Shown: positions 2,257 through 40,263 of the stretch, piece by piece
How the letters are laid out: the number at the start of each line of letters is the position of its first letter
Numbering within the stretch: position 1 is the stretch's first letter
Notes under the pieces: generated by a model
What the model saw: the letters and a program-made list of their open reading frames with translations, nothing else
Told to the model about the DNA's origin: nothing
Database searches by the model: none
DNA from: a virus
IMG/VR virus record: IMGVR_UViG_3300042934_000724
Coordinates: 1-56,737 of that record
Direction: 5' to 3' (one strand)
Length of the DNA stretch: 56,737 nt
Translations under genes and position numbers: made by a program

Positions 2257-2310
2257 CGAGTCCAGCCCTGGCGGGTCTACGCTGAATCAGATCCAGCCGA
2301 GGACATGGCA

Positions 2311-3009
2311 ATGTGCGGACGACTTTCACAGTACAGCGGAATTCACGACTTTGTGGCGGCGCTGAGCATGCCGAACGCGCTCATCAACTCGACCGGCGAG
2401 CAGCCCTTCGAGCGGTACAACGCCGCGCCAACCACTCAACTGGCTCTCTTCCACCAAGAAGGCCAGTTCCTGCACGCCGACATGGTTCGCTGGGGGTGGC
2501 GCCCGCATTGGGCGAAAGACCGAGCAGCGCCAATCAACGCCCGCGTGGAGAAAGTCGCCCATGGCCCGTTCTTCCGCGCGATCTGGCCGCACCGGGCAAT
2601 CATCGCGATCAACAACTGGTTCGAGTGGGTCGATGAAGGGGAACCGAAGAAGCAGCCCTACCTGATCAGGCACCGGGACCAATCCCCAATCCTGTGCGCA
2701 GCGATCGGCCAATACCCGAACGAGGAGCACGGCCCCGGCGAGCACGACGGCTTTGTGATCATCACCGCCGACAGCGCCGGCGGCATGGTCGATGTTCACG
2801 ACCGGCGCCCTGTTGTTCTGCCGCCAGAGCTTGCCCGCGAATGGCTCGACCAGGCCACGCCAAAAGAACGCGCCGAGCAGATGGTTCTGCATGAGGGCGA
2901 GCCATCGGAGGCGTTCGAATGGTTCAAGGTCGACCGCGCCGTGGGAAATGTCCGCAATCAACAAAGTGGATTGATTAATCCGATCGATGAAAACAGCCGC
3001 ATGAATTAA
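2311..3009 (+). CDS. SOS response-associated (HMCES/YedK-type) protein
   Basis: A 232-aa SRAP-domain protein. The family covalently crosslinks to abasic sites in single-stranded DNA through the catalytic Cys2 and so protects them. Starting at 2311 gives MCGRLSQ, placing the needed cysteine at position 2; the upstream in-frame ATG at 2305 would bury it and is too close to the GAGG site. The INARVEK motif and the later VHDRRPVVLP motif match the family active site. It is the third gene of the left-end plus-strand group and converges with the next gene, their stop codons overlapping by 4 bp. Confidence 0.9.
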   Translation: MCGRLSQYSGIHDFVAALSMPNALINSTGEQPFERYNAAPTTQLALFHQEGQFLHADMVRWGWRPHWAKDRAAPINARVEKVAHGPFFRAIWPHRAIIAINNWFEWVDEGEPKKQPYLIRHRDQSPILCAAIGQYPNEEHGPGEHDGFVIITADSAGGMVDVHDRRPVVLPPELAREWLDQATPKERAEQMVLHEGEPSEAFEWFKVDRAVGNVRNQQSGLINPIDENSRMN

Positions 3010-4934: not shown

Positions 4935-6197
4935 TCACCTATCAAAGTAGTAACCAAGGCCATAACAATTGGCGTTCCCGCCACCGTTTCCCTTGTAGGT
5001 AATCGTGCCATCGCTAGCGATTGGGCATCGGCCGTTGAAAATCGTGTTTGGCCCAACGAATACCATCCAGCCCGTGTTGATGTTCGTTCCTGCATCCGAG
5101 GGCGTGAACTGAACCGCAGCAGTGCCAACGTTCTGCCAGGCGCCTTCCAGCGTATGAGCAGTGACTGGCGCTATCGGCCGAATGGTGAATGCGGCAATTG
5201 AGGTTCCAGCACTCAGCAGTCGGAAGGGGGCTCCCTGCGGGTTGGCCACTGTGTACATCATCGAACCATCCAGCGGACGGTGTACAAACTGGTAAGCCCC
5301 CAGGGCATTTGTATTTATCAGAATGGAACCGATGTATCTGCGAGTGTTATCACCGGTCTTTTGAAAGGCCTGGTTGTAATAGCGCACTGGGGCGTCTAGC
5401 GATTGGTCAATGGTTCCAGCATCCGTCAGATAAAGATGCACAAAGGAATTCACTTCTACCACCCCTCTCGGAGTGATATTGGCGCCGGGGTAGGTGACCA
5501 CCTTTCCTACGGACGGGACGTATGCACTGCCCGCGCGGATAGCGATGCTTGTGCCTGAAGACCAGACGAGCGTCAGGCCTTCGATGAAACCGAACGCGCC
5601 ACCTATCCCGCCCTGCTCGCGCGCGAGAGGAGTGGTCAGGCCAGTGATAGAAGTGATGTCGCTGTTCGCGCCCTTCGCCGCCTTCGATGTTGCCTGAGAC
5701 TGCAGCTTGCCCAACGCAGTAAGGACTGTGTCAGCAGCCGCAATCGCAGCCGGGGTGCCGGGAATGGAAAGCCCGGTCAAGGCAGCCAAGCGAACACGGG
5801 CATCGGTGAAATACTTGTTGGTCGCCCCCTCCGCCAGGCCATCCGTATTTGTCAGCCCCAATGAGGCGCGGACACCAGCAAGGGTTGGGTCTTCGCCCAA
5901 GACAGCCAACACACCTCCGAACTGATTCTTCAAACCGTTGAAAGCGTCGGCCAGTAGTTTCGGATAGCCCTGCACCGGCATGATCGCGTACGCAGATCCG
6001 CTTACGGTAGCGCCTTTATATGCGGGGATGATCGATAGCTGGGTCGGACTGGCGATGTTGCCGATCTCATAATTGAGTCCATCAGGCCCGACGAACGCGT
6101 CGCCCACCCGAGCATTGGCCACAAAATCGGCGTTCGTCCCTACGACAGTCGTTGATCCGCTGGTGACGGCGACTGTTCCCCCTCGGAGCCAAGGCAT
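4935..6197 (-). CDS. Tail fibre / receptor-binding tail protein
   Basis: A 420-aa virion protein. The N-terminal domain (about 1-75) is beta-rich and begins MPWLRGGTVAVTSGSTTVVG, a motif of fibre-tip proteins that attach to the tail. The middle has the GLTNTDGLAEGATNKYFTDARVR collagen-free linker common in fibres, then a beta-rich C-terminal half that likely forms the receptor-binding trimer. It lies between two tail proteins and the assembly chaperone. A terminator lies just upstream of its start. Confidence 0.75.
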   Translation of the reverse strand: MPWLRGGTVAVTSGSTTVVGTNADFVANARVGDAFVGPDGLNYEIGNIASPTQLSIIPAYKGATVSGSAYAIMPVQGYPKLLADAFNGLKNQFGGVLAVLGEDPTLAGVRASLGLTNTDGLAEGATNKYFTDARVRLAALTGLSIPGTPAAIAAADTVLTALGKLQSQATSKAAKGANSDITSITGLTTPLAREQGGIGGAFGFIEGLTLVWSSGTSIAIRAGSAYVPSVGKVVTYPGANITPRGVVEVNSFVHLYLTDAGTIDQSLDAPVRYYNQAFQKTGDNTRRYIGSILINTNALGAYQFVHRPLDGSMMYTVANPQGAPFRLLSAGTSIAAFTIRPIAPVTAHTLEGAWQNVGTAAVQFTPSDAGTNINTGWMVFVGPNTIFNGRCPIASDGTITYKGNGGGNANCYGLGYYFDR

Positions 6198-36161: not shown

Positions 36162-36911
36162 TCAGGCCTCGGCCAGCTTGTACTGAGCCCAAAGGCCGGC
36201 AATCCAGTTGACGCCCTTGGGAGTGAATTTGGATTGGTTGTAGGCGTGGCCGCTGTCGCTGGTGCCGGCTTTTACTTCGAAACGGCCGGCGTCGACGTGA
36301 GGCTGGTAGGCCTGCCACTCGCCGCCCATGCGGTACATGATCTTTTTGTCGAGCAGGAACTCGCGGAAACGCGCTTCATTGGCCTTGAGCAGTTTGGCGA
36401 CCTGGCGGAAGCCTTTCAGACCGGTAGACTCAACATATTTTTCGACAAAGGCGATCTTCGGCGCAGCTTCAATAAGCGCCTGATTGGCAGCCTGCTGAAG
36501 CTCGAACTGCTCAGCCCAAGCGCGAGCGGCGGCGGCAGGATTGGAGAAGTCAGGAAGCGTTGCCAGGACGCGTGGGCGAACCTGCTCTTCGAGTTCGGTC
36601 CAGCGGCGCACCACCGCCCTTCTCATTTTGGAGCTGTAACCAGTCAGAAGGGTCTCGGTCAGCTCTTTATCCAGCAAATACTCAGTCTGCTCACGATTCA
36701 TGCTGTCCAAATAGATGTGAGCAAAATCGCTCACATCTTCTTCGAGCTCAGACGCCATTGCTTGGATGTCGCGCTTTACATCGGGATGACGCTTCCCCGT
36801 GAGTTCAGCAATTTCGCGAGACGACATGGTGGTACGCGACACGTTTTCAGAATTCGAAAAACGTGTCGCGACATTCGCGGGGGTATTGACGAGAGAAGAT
36901 TGTGTATTCAT
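36162..36911 (-). CDS. Rha-family regulator with KilAC-type antirepressor domain
   Basis: A 249-aa phage regulatory protein starting MNTQSSLVNTPANVATRF. Residues about 28-100 form a Rha domain (TTMSSREIAELTGKRHPDVKRDIQAM), and about 155-245 a KilAC-type DNA-binding domain (FRQVAKLLKANEARFREFLLDKKIMYR, then YNQSKFTPKGVNWIAGLW). Such proteins act as antirepressors or regulators of lytic growth. It precedes the initiator gene by 1 bp in the PR-type operon. GAGGCAATA lies before the ATG. Confidence 0.88.
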   Translation of the reverse strand: MNTQSSLVNTPANVATRFSNSENVSRTTMSSREIAELTGKRHPDVKRDIQAMASELEEDVSDFAHIYLDSMNREQTEYLLDKELTETLLTGYSSKMRRAVVRRWTELEEQVRPRVLATLPDFSNPAAAARAWAEQFELQQAANQALIEAAPKIAFVEKYVESTGLKGFRQVAKLLKANEARFREFLLDKKIMYRMGGEWQAYQPHVDAGRFEVKAGTSDSGHAYNQSKFTPKGVNWIAGLWAQYKLAEA

Positions 36912-36972
36912 TATTGCCTCGCTGAAGTAGCAATGAGCCAGGCCACGAACCTGGTTTTTTTGTGCCTGCGAT

Positions 36973-37440
36973 TTATGCGCGGGCTTTGTGCAACTCAATC
37001 ACCGCCCCGATAGCCTCAAGGCTCGCCGACATGTACTTGGCGTGCAGGGCGCGGATCTTCTTTGCTTCGTTCGAATCGATTTCGCCGTCTTCCAGGGCGG
37101 AAGCCACCATCTGGTCAAGCGCACCACGCTGTGCGGATGCAGCCAGTGAGCGCTGATACAGATCGACGTTGTCCAACTCCCCCGCTTCCGGGATCTTCAC
37201 GAACACGCCGCCGTACATCGCGCAGATGTAGTCCGGCAGGTGCTCGGTCTTCGTTTCGCTTTCCAGCACGAAGATCTCGGCATCGCTCAGCGGCTTACAC
37301 CCGGCGGTTTCATAGATCTGGTTCTCCAGGCGCTTGTCCTTGATGCCAAGGCGAGCAGCTGCGCAATCCATCCCGCCAGGAAAAGCGTTGGACACGGCCG
37401 CCATGACTTGGCGGCGGGTCTCTAGTACGGGCGTTTTCAT
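36973..37440 (-). CDS. YmfL-family putative regulator (CII position)
   Basis: A 155-aa protein starting MKTPVLETRRQVMAAVSNAFPGGMDCAAARLGIKDKRLENQIYETAGCKPLSDAEIFVLESETKTEHLPDYIC, the opening of YmfL-type proteins of lambdoid and Rac/e14-like prophages. The N-terminal 60 residues form a helix-turn-helix. It is the second gene of the PR-type operon, where lambda has cII, so a role in the lysis-lysogeny choice is plausible. Confidence 0.82.
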   Translation of the reverse strand: MKTPVLETRRQVMAAVSNAFPGGMDCAAARLGIKDKRLENQIYETAGCKPLSDAEIFVLESETKTEHLPDYICAMYGGVFVKIPEAGELDNVDLYQRSLAASAQRGALDQMVASALEDGEIDSNEAKKIRALHAKYMSASLEAIGAVIELHKARA

Positions 37441-37558: not shown

Positions 37559-37762
37559 TTAAGCGGCGATCGGGTAAATATCTGGACGAAGCTCATGGCG
37601 TGGAATACCGGTGGCTTGCTCTACTGGAATAACTCGCTCAGCTGGGATGCGACCTGTTGCGCACCACTTCTGAACGTTTTGAGGCGTACAGCCAAGAACG
37701 CGAGCAAGGGCGGACTGGCTTCCTGCTGCTTCAGCTGCACGCACGGCTGCGTTCTGGTTCAT
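37559..37762 (-). CDS. Cro/YdaS-like transcriptional regulator
   Basis: A 67-aa helix-turn-helix protein starting MNQNAAVRAAEAAGSQSALARVLGCTPQNVQKWCATGRIPAERVIPVEQATGIPRHELRPDIYP. The HTH is about residues 16-37, and the late IPRHELRPDIYP is typical of Cro/YdaS-like phage proteins. AGAGG lies before the ATG. It is the first gene of the PR-type operon and faces the repressor gene across the operators, so it is the expected lytic Cro. Confidence 0.88.
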   Translation of the reverse strand: MNQNAAVRAAEAAGSQSALARVLGCTPQNVQKWCATGRIPAERVIPVEQATGIPRHELRPDIYPIAA

Positions 37763-37868
37763 AGGCACCTCTAAAATTTGGCTTACAACGCAAAGTTACA
37801 ACCTTTGCCAAAAAACTACAACTGAGAATTGCAATGCTGGCTACAACGACTAGTTGTAAAGTGTCTCT
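37763..37868. promoter_or_regulatory. OR-type operator region with PR and PRM
   Basis: Three 17-bp sites of the form TACAAC-N5-RTTRYA: 37784-37800, 37817-37833 and 37842-37858, the last a perfect palindrome in its arms. On the minus strand TTGTAG (37821-37816) and TAACTT (37798-37793), 17 bp apart, form a PR promoter; two operators cover its -35 and -10. A PRM -10 (TTGTAA, 37854-37859) overlaps the third operator and lies 9 bp before the repressor ATG. Confidence 0.75.
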
Positions 37869-38459
37869 ATGAGCACAATCGGAAAAAGAATCGCTGCTGC
37901 ACGAGAGGCTGTCGGGCTGAACCAGTCGGAACTCGCTCGTCTATTGGGGGTTAAGCCTCAGTCCGTCCAGGCTTGGGAGGCGGACAAAAATGTTCCCCGC
38001 CCGAAGAAACTTGAAGGAATTGCAGGCGCGCTGAAGGTTTCAATCTCCCACTTGATGGGCGAATCGGGCTCATTTAGCACTCCACACTTCACTCCTCTGA
38101 CGGGCTCCGAAATCAAAGGCGCTGCGGCCAAAAACCTGAGGATCAGCTCGTCCGGCGGAGTGGAAAAAATCCTCCGTGATGTAGTGTCCCGCGCGCTTCA
38201 AAAAGGGGAGCTCGGAGAGAGTGATGTGTCACTTCTTACAGCCATGGCAAATGTCATGATTGAAAGAAACGTTTCCTCCGGGGAAAACGTGCCACATCTT
38301 CCTGATGAATTGGATGCACTCGCAGAATCCGCGTTTAAAAATGCAGACGCTGGCGGCGATTCGGGAGATATGGTGAAGATGATCGGTCATGGCCTTAAGA
38401 AGTCAGTAGCCAAGGAAAGCGGCCCTACACATGCAAAACGCAAAACCGGAACCGATTGA
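37869..38459 (+). CDS. CI-position XRE repressor without peptidase domain
   Basis: A 196-aa protein with an N-terminal XRE helix-turn-helix (MSTIGKRIAAAREAVGLNQSELARLLGVKPQSVQAWEADKNVPRPKKLEGIAGAL, about 1-55). The rest is helical and shows no S24/LexA-type peptidase Ser-Lys dyad, so it may not be inactivated by RecA-triggered self-cleavage. There is no ribosome binding site before the ATG; the PRM geometry fits a near-leaderless mRNA, as for lambda cI. It overlaps the HipA-like gene by 29 bp. Repression of both early operons is inferred from the flanking operators. Confidence 0.82.
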   Translation: MSTIGKRIAAAREAVGLNQSELARLLGVKPQSVQAWEADKNVPRPKKLEGIAGALKVSISHLMGESGSFSTPHFTPLTGSEIKGAAAKNLRISSSGGVEKILRDVVSRALQKGELGESDVSLLTAMANVMIERNVSSGENVPHLPDELDALAESAFKNADAGGDSGDMVKMIGHGLKKSVAKESGPTHAKRKTGTD

Positions 38460-39222
38460 CATTCCACTCGCCCTTTATCTCCAGGGCGAGGCTGTTGTTG
38501 ACCCAGACGTGAAGGGTCAGCACCCACTTTTCTACGGCACCATCAGCGGGCTGAAAGGCTACCGTAGAGACCTCCATGCATACATAAAGGTATTGCCTGC
38601 CGAGCGATTGTTCGCCGAAACCATGAGCGCGAGCATCGGGAGATATTTTGGCCTACCTATTCCCCTAACTGCTCTTGCGGTTGCCCGCGGAAAAGACGTT
38701 GGGCGAGGGCACGGTAAGTGCATCGTATTGGCGAGCGTGGACACCAATGCGGTGCCTATGAGCCGCGTGATCAATTTCGACAAGGTCTCACACTTACTCA
38801 ATAAGTGGTCACACCTGCATGCCGCCATTGTCTTCGACGAACTCCTAGCTAACACCGACAGGAATTTGCGCAACCTCCTTATCGGTGGCGATGGAGCTAT
38901 TTGGCTTATCGACCACGAGGAGGCGCTGTCAGCACCAAGCCTCCAAGCGAGCGAAAATATCCGGAACCATCTTCTGGGGATGGTCATCGGAGAGGTGTCT
39001 GAGTTTGAAAGACACCAGGCGTCCAAAAAGCTGAAAGATCGATCTGCCCCAGCATATACTGCTAACTTCAGGAAACATGCTGCGGCGAGTCAGCCGCATT
39101 ATTGCCAAGTCGACCAGGCACATGTCGACAAAGTGGTGGACTTCCTCGAGTCACGCGTAAAACATATGAGCGCTCTAATGGATGGGGCTCTCGGCTTCAA
39201 ACAGAAAACCATGGCGGTCTAA
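38431..39222 (+). CDS. HipA-like kinase
   Basis: A 263-aa protein with a HipA-type kinase core. The catalytic block HAAIVFDELLANTDRNLRNLLIGGDGAIWLIDHEEAL (about 130-166) has the D-x4-NxDR and ID(H)E metal-binding motif of this fold. The N-terminal half (YIKVLPAERLFAETMSASIGRYFGLPIPLTALAV) resembles the nucleotide-binding part. HipA proteins phosphorylate targets such as tRNA synthetases and cause dormancy. It lies between the repressor and a 295-aa partner, all overlapping or within 4 bp, so it should be made in lysogens. Target unknown. Confidence 0.75.
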   Translation: MQNAKPEPIDIPLALYLQGEAVVDPDVKGQHPLFYGTISGLKGYRRDLHAYIKVLPAERLFAETMSASIGRYFGLPIPLTALAVARGKDVGRGHGKCIVLASVDTNAVPMSRVINFDKVSHLLNKWSHLHAAIVFDELLANTDRNLRNLLIGGDGAIWLIDHEEALSAPSLQASENIRNHLLGMVIGEVSEFERHQASKKLKDRSAPAYTANFRKHAAASQPHYCQVDQAHVDKVVDFLESRVKHMSALMDGALGFKQKTMAV

Positions 39223-39225
39223 AGG

Positions 39226-40113
39226 ATGCTCCCAGATCTCTCTGAATTCCCCAGCTTTCCTGAATATGAGGCGGATTGGGCCCCTGTTTACCTGGAGCCC
39301 ATCGTTCAGTCCGGCGAGCGTCTAACTATTGCAGTGGTCGCAGCTTCTGGCGACGAGGTCAACGGCTGCCTCACTATTAGTGAGAAGGCCTTGAAATGCC
39401 TATACGGCAGCTCGGCGGTAGGCATGCAACGAATGATGGGGCTTGCGTTGTCCCGCGCCCTGGAATTTGCCGAAGGCGGCTTCGAGGGGCAGTTCTCATG
39501 CGGCATTCACGGAGTAGTCATCGGCAAGACCCGCAGGGGGTTGGGCAACAACATGACCCATATCCTCCAACAAGCATCCAGCCTTACCTCAAGCCTTTCC
39601 ACCGTTCATGCCTCGGCTCTGATGGAAGAGGACGATGAGTCAGACGATCCGGTAGCCTACGAGGCAAATCTTGGGCAGCTACGATCTGACATACAGGATC
39701 GAGTGCTGGGCATTCTCCCCCGCCTGAGGGATCGCTTTAACTTGCCTTTGCATACTCAAGCAATTCAGGGAGCGCGTGGCAGCCTGTTCTTTGCTGGCAA
39801 TCGCATGGCAGCCAGCCTGGCCAAGATAAAACCATCGAAGCAAATAAGTCGCCACGTAGACGGCGCCAAGAGCCGACTATGGGATCTGCATTTCGTTAAG
39901 CATAAGGTCGCCGACGCCCCGCAGAATAAATGCACGCTATTCATCTGGACGCCAAAGGAGCTAGACAGGTTTGATCCCTCGCTCATAGCGGAATACGAGC
40001 AAAGTCTTGAAGATCTCCAGCGCCAGAGTCTTGAAGACGGCATTGAGCCACACATTTTTTACGGCGCCGAAGAGGCAGCCGCTGCCATCATTGATTATGA
40101 GCGTGCTGCCTAG
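39226..40113 (+). CDS. Unknown partner of the HipA-like kinase
   Basis: A 295-aa soluble protein starting MLPDLSEFPSFPEYEADWAPVYLEPIVQSGERLTIAVVAASGDE. It begins 4 bp after the kinase stop. The opening, a strand ending in P....GERLtIaVV, faintly recalls DUF3037-type proteins that neighbour HipA-like kinases elsewhere, but the protein is much longer and the resemblance is weak. The middle is helical; the end (KCTLFIWTPKELDRFDPSLIAEYEQSLEDLQ) is charged. A terminator follows. Function unknown; third gene of the lysogen-expressed operon. Confidence 0.7.
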   Translation: MLPDLSEFPSFPEYEADWAPVYLEPIVQSGERLTIAVVAASGDEVNGCLTISEKALKCLYGSSAVGMQRMMGLALSRALEFAEGGFEGQFSCGIHGVVIGKTRRGLGNNMTHILQQASSLTSSLSTVHASALMEEDDESDDPVAYEANLGQLRSDIQDRVLGILPRLRDRFNLPLHTQAIQGARGSLFFAGNRMAASLAKIKPSKQISRHVDGAKSRLWDLHFVKHKVADAPQNKCTLFIWTPKELDRFDPSLIAEYEQSLEDLQRQSLEDGIEPHIFYGAEEAAAAIIDYERAA

Positions 40114-40188: not shown

Positions 40189-40263
40189 CATCGCTCATAA
40201 TTACAATTTAAAGTTGCGCATTACAATTTTAGGTTGTAGATTGAACCCATCGAGTCACCCAAC
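40189..40263 (+). promoter_or_regulatory. OL-type operators and PL promoter
   Basis: TACAAT-N5-GTTGCG (40202-40218) and TACAAT-N5-GTTGTA (40222-40238) match the repressor-side operators at 37784-37858. A promoter with TTGCGC (40214-40219), 17-bp spacer and TAGATT (40237-40242) is covered by them. It would drive the plus-strand early operon toward the integrase. Confidence 0.7.

Follow-up and report, generated by a model that had tools for sequence, protein, structure and literature searches.

In phage lambda, the cI-rexA-rexB operon sits between the operators OR and OL. HipBST systems consist of an HTH protein, a separate antitoxin, and a kinase; HipT is the kinase, homologous to HipA, and HipS is the counterpart of the N-terminal part of HipA. 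The primary paper on a further system, HipAD, is reportedly that of Brenes and Laub (2025), which by its title deals with E. coli prophages. In the HipAD system DS-6, a HipA-like kinase is accompanied by a DUF3037/DUF1829 protein (PMC13092281, PMC12548924), and PDC-M66 in the PADLOC collection is a HipA-like/DUF3037 pair. The kinase of HipAD acts as the toxin, and the DUF3037 protein as its neutralizer. Defense is lost in a catalytic mutant of DS-6A (PMC13092281). In the Retron-Sda1 operon, defense is lost when the kinase is deleted but does not need the HTH gene, and removal of the DUF3037 gene is toxic (PMC12548924). RexAB is found also in the P. putida prophage P1 (PMC12894663), and KKP of Pf prophages controls lysogeny through phosphorylation of MvaU in addition to its role in defense (PMC11341870).

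An operon in the position of cI-rexA-rexB

We analyzed the whole of the virus record IMGVR_UViG_3300042934_000724, a stretch of 56,737 bases that we refer to as the window. Relatives of this virus are Pseudomonas phages, such as Medea1, and a 99% copy of the window kinase is present in Pseudomonas weihenstephanensis (L030). A plasmid origin for the window was considered and rejected, there being no near match. At the left end of the window is a CsrA-like ORF (28-222), and the record possibly includes some host flank.

Three ORFs on the plus strand make up the operon: a lysogeny repressor of 196 aa (37869-38459), a kinase of 263 aa (38431-39222), and a protein of 295 aa that we call P295 (39226-40113). 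These coordinates agree with an earlier note on this DNA, which had described an XRE repressor without an S24 peptidase domain, a HipA-like kinase whose gene shares 29 bp with that of the repressor, and a 295-aa protein. The kinase and P295 ORFs are separated by 3 bp, and from the overlap and this spacing we infer that all three genes are co-transcribed. They are not chance ORFs, because all three are conserved in relatives. The repressor was also described correctly: HTH_3 covers residues 8-61, and no Pfam match to Peptidase_S24 was found in the window repressor at E<=1. Comparison with relatives further delimits a C-terminal tail at about residues 142-190. On the minus strand are a divergent Cro-like protein of 69 aa (37559-37768; YdaS_toxin PF15943, 6e-19; P22_Cro, 5e-6; phrog_35, repressor) and a CII-type activator of the YmfL/CP76 kind (36973-37440; NF041471, 1e-49; phrog_101, 5e-40), which complete a lambda-like immunity region.

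Scanning the window for the 17-mer TACAAC-N5-GTTGTA yielded 27 matches against 8.5 expected; the same pattern with a 6-base spacer was not above chance. The sole perfect match (37842-37858) and the sole match with 1 mismatch (40222-40238) both flank the operon. The perfect palindrome, on the OR side, is accompanied by two operator-like sites with 2 mismatches each (37784-37800 and 37817-37833), and the OL-side site by one with 3 mismatches (40202-40218), with direct repeats adding to the scan as the basis for all five assignments. A scan for promoters and terminators gave results near the level of shuffled sequence. The operon is bracketed by these OR-like and OL-like sites, as is cI-rexA-rexB in lambda, and like the lambda operon it has two genes behind the lysogeny repressor. 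Unlike RexAB, these two encode a kinase and a DUF3037-like protein, and there were no RexA or RexB matches among the family searches of the operon proteins and their relatives. The earlier note knew of no three-gene switch of this kind. As regards layout this was too broad, since the arrangement is that of cI-rexA-rexB; the coupling of a repressor to a kinase, however, was not found in the literature searched.

The kinase and its constant partner

The window kinase scores 27.9 bits against Pfam HipA_2 (cut-off, 27), a family matched by 27 of 27 aligned kinase sequences, and the PADLOC family PDC-M66A was matched by 26 of 26. The proposal in the earlier note had been staked on conservation of the catalytic residues in homologs, and these are indeed conserved: K53, D136, N141, D143, R144, N148, D161, and H162 are invariant among 26-27 aligned sequences, and relatives keep the catalytic residues down to 18-25% identity. 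By these invariant residues the kinase looks active. Sequence searches for solved structures of the kinase returned none. In structure comparison, the model of the kinase (pLDDT 86) was closest to CtkA (Z 16.2), followed by PI4K II (about 14), HipT-Lp (12.0-12.2), and HipA (11.8), and the predicted fold is that of the HipA/CtkA/PI4K kinases.

P295 matches phrog_21150 across its full length (E 3e-35) and has no Pfam family, with only scattered weak matches at E<=1. Matches to solved structures by sequence all had E>0.01 and were judged to be chance. Relatives of P295, like those of the kinase, are conserved to 18-25% identity, and a kinase lies directly upstream of the P295 relative in 76 of 77 viral-contig loci, a set that includes near-duplicates. 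In L058 (4089-5843) the two are fused into one ORF of 584 aa. The kinase and P295 are thus a conserved unit.

The N-terminal part of P295 contains a DUF3037-like motif, and structure modeling predicts a PD-(D/E)XK/ERCC4-like domain for the C-terminal half (Z up to 9.5). Comparison of P295 with ten long DUF3037 proteins by hhalign gave an E value of 3e-5 and a probability of 73% over 232 collinear columns; the score of 42 compares with 26 or less for unrelated and 60 column-shuffled profiles, and with 15 for the reversed profile. The DUF3037 subset A11 alone aligned weakly, over 50 columns only and with 18% probability, and none of 28 aligned P295 relatives reached Pfam DUF3037. On these profile comparisons P295 is probably a remote relative of DUF3037 proteins, and not a member of the family.

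The window pair is like HipAD and PDC-M66 in its kinase family, in the order of a kinase followed by a partner of ~280 aa, and in its prophage setting. It is unlike HipAD in that P295 is apparently only a remote relative of DUF3037, and in that its translation is coupled to that of a lysogeny repressor which lacks the peptidase and has a dedicated tail. S24-like genes likewise precede HipA_2-DUF3037 pairs of Pseudomonas and other genomes (L099, L100, L109).

P295 is a candidate neutralizer or sensor. In three loci (L033, L057, L067) a broken kinase accompanies a P295 relative that is intact or whose frame runs on to the end of the contig, which fits a toxin-neutralizer pair; a counter-example is L138, in which the P295 relative has an internal stop and the kinase is apparently intact. 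L168 has two P295-like stretches (1576-2625 and 4992-5321), one of which is behind a kinase-like stretch.

In the earlier note it was the repressor that served as the HipB-like antitoxin of the kinase, such that loss of the prophage would free the toxin. Such a role would suit an HTH protein that adjoins a HipA-like kinase, and its tail suggests contact. The kinase, however, matches HipA_2 and not HipA_C (PF07804), the family by which HipBA is recognized; HipA_C was matched at E<=0.1 by 2 of 27 aligned kinase sequences. Nor is there a HipB-type HTH protein as constant partner: the type and domain of the upstream HTH gene vary and P295 is constant, the pair being found also with S24, Arc/Mnt, and other repressors. 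Moreover, what proved toxic in the related HipA/DUF3037 system was loss of DUF3037, and defense by that retron operon did not require its HTH gene (PMC12548924). We therefore dropped the repressor as a HipB homolog as our main reading, and regard it as very improbable. What we propose for the window instead is a DNA binder, a kinase, and a separate neutralizer, as in HipBST. The window differs from HipBST in that its HTH protein is a phage repressor and in that P295 appears to have another predicted fold than HipS, its model resembling other folds among the structures matched.

Genes upstream of the kinase

Across the same 77 viral-contig loci, near-duplicates included, the gene upstream of the kinase encodes an S24 repressor in 37, a tail repressor in 16, and an HTH-only protein in 7; in the remaining 17 there is another gene, Arc/Mnt-like in some cases, or none. 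Judging from gene order, the kinase-P295 pair appears to sit in a repressor operon in most phage loci. Co-occurrence, which the earlier note had suggested checking for all three genes, was seen for kinase and P295, and not for the repressor, whose type varies. Overlap with the kinase gene is seen in 16 of 16 loci for the tail repressors and in 0 of 37 for the S24 repressors, the distance from the end of the S24 repressor to the start of the matched kinase being at least 45 bp.

The same order of Cro, HTH, kinase, and P295 genes is present in a Marinobacter plasmid record. The pair is behind an Arc/Mnt-like gene in L028, L064, and L065. In L028 (Acinetobacter phage qsb1), it lies among tail genes and opposite a BRO-family gene, an arrangement like the P22 immI-type switch.

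A repressor tail that varies with the kinase

The nearest relatives of the window repressor in the HTH domain carry S24 (PS-1, 60% over 65 aa; Tr60_Ab31, 43%), and no kinase was found beside either repressor within the stretches read. Because S24 is present in these relatives and absent here, it appears from sequence that the S24 domain was swapped for the tail unit in the lineage of the window. The tail is common to XRE, lambda-CI-like, and at least one further HTH type. Searches with the tail returned kinase-bearing loci with a single exception, a stand-alone ORF of 59 aa in G252 (L116, 5644-5823). This ORF consists almost only of the tail and could represent a remnant or a decoy; the 13 kb of L116 that were read contain no match to the kinase or P295.

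We compared pairwise distances across the 16 tail loci by the Mantel procedure. The correlation (r) was 0.85 between tail and kinase, 0.88 between HTH and Cro, and 0.96 between kinase and P295, and it was 0.57 between the tail and its own HTH and 0.41 between the tail and Cro. One locus, L043, has the appearance of a natural recombinant. With L007 it shares an HTH at 86% identity and a nearly identical Cro, whereas its tail has 20% identity to that of L007 and 55-60% to the group of L041, L042, and L048, and its kinase has 85-86% identity to that group as opposed to 50% to L007. These patterns suggest that repressor and kinase are functionally linked through the tail, although the tail adjoins the kinase in the DNA and adjacency may explain part of their co-variation. 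Of the link between repressor and kinase that had been proposed, what held up is the tail, which varies together with the kinase and, apart from one 59-aa ORF, was found only at kinase loci; the HipB-type antitoxin role was not supported.

We think it reasonably likely that the locus is a HipAD-like defense pair in the Rex position, coupled to the repressor via the tail. The kinase and P295 would form a HipAD-like (PDC-M66-like) toxin-neutralizer pair in the position of lambda rexA-rexB, expressed in the lysogen from the repressor promoter, with P295 restraining the kinase. The kinase would be released when another phage superinfects or when P295 is lost, and would then phosphorylate a host target such that the infection is aborted. 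In the repressor, S24 would have given way to a short C-terminal tail in contact with the kinase, alone or in complex with P295, and the repressor would act as a third part, DNA-tethering and autoregulatory like HipB in HipBST, and not as the main antitoxin.

It is rather unlikely that the pair is a pure passenger, i.e., Rex-type defense cargo behind a non-cleavable repressor for which the tail is a mere dimerization domain, with the co-variation arising from DNA adjacency. Linkage does predict co-variation, in most relatives the pair comes after an S24 repressor whose gene does not overlap it, and induction of an antirepressor type is available to the phage, as described below. A passenger would nevertheless fit poorly with a tail that is recognizable across HTH types, that is found without a kinase only as the one 59-aa ORF, and whose gene overlaps that of the kinase in every tail locus. 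The locus sets a HipAD-like, presumably defensive pair within a lysogeny operon, and if the pair is coupled to the repressor as we favor, control of dormancy and defense may be joined. The apparent natural exchange of S24 for a kinase-linked tail makes the link between induction and anti-phage toxicity directly testable. Even if the tail is not a switch, the locus provides a clean Rex-position defense module with kinase chemistry.

Routes of induction

If the tail does work as a switch, there would be a route of induction other than RecA cleavage. According to one such scheme, the kinase module replaces the lost S24: a kinase gated by P295 would phosphorylate or strip the repressor via the tail, and the kinase signal would induce the prophage. 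S24 is missing where the tail is present and is carried by relatives of the same HTH type, the tail-kinase-P295 unit is found with at least 3 different HTH/Cro cassettes, and KKP sets a precedent for control of lysogeny by the kinase module of a prophage, through phosphorylation of MvaU (PMC11341870). We nonetheless consider this replacement unlikely: in 37 loci the pair follows an S24 repressor, which makes induction improbable as its basic function, and alternative routes are offered by an antirepressor candidate and LexA-like boxes. Like KKP, the window module as we propose it would have roles in both lysogeny and defense; unlike it, KKP comprises two Ser/Thr kinases and a phosphatase antitoxin, targets the host protein MvaU, and has no such coupling to a repressor. 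Also doubtful is the more far-reaching idea of a switch in which the RecA-sensing S24 has been replaced, in at least three HTH types, by the tail and a HipAD-like pair, with one kinase complex both deciding induction and aborting superinfection.

The candidate antirepressor is encoded on the minus strand (36162-36998) and combines Rha and KilAC (ANT) domains (PF03374, 1e-23; PF09669, 8e-13). LexA-like boxes number two in the window against 0.01 expected: CTGTATTTTCCTACAG (1512-1527) is upstream of an ORF of 69 aa (1603-1812), and CTGTATATGCAAACAG (1856-1871) is upstream of an ORF of 123 aa (1885-2256). Given the antirepressor candidate and these boxes, RecA-independent induction, as the earlier note had it, does not follow from the loss of S24 alone.

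The stretch of P. weihenstephanensis that was read (L176) contained no LexA-like box. Among the other tail-class contigs, 5 of 12 have LexA-like boxes; the box at 1856-1871 and its adjoining ORF recur together only in the L008 contig, and a common SOS gene across the tail class is therefore not supported. In the window, the ORFs behind the LexA-like boxes are followed by a gene with an SRAP domain (2305-3009).
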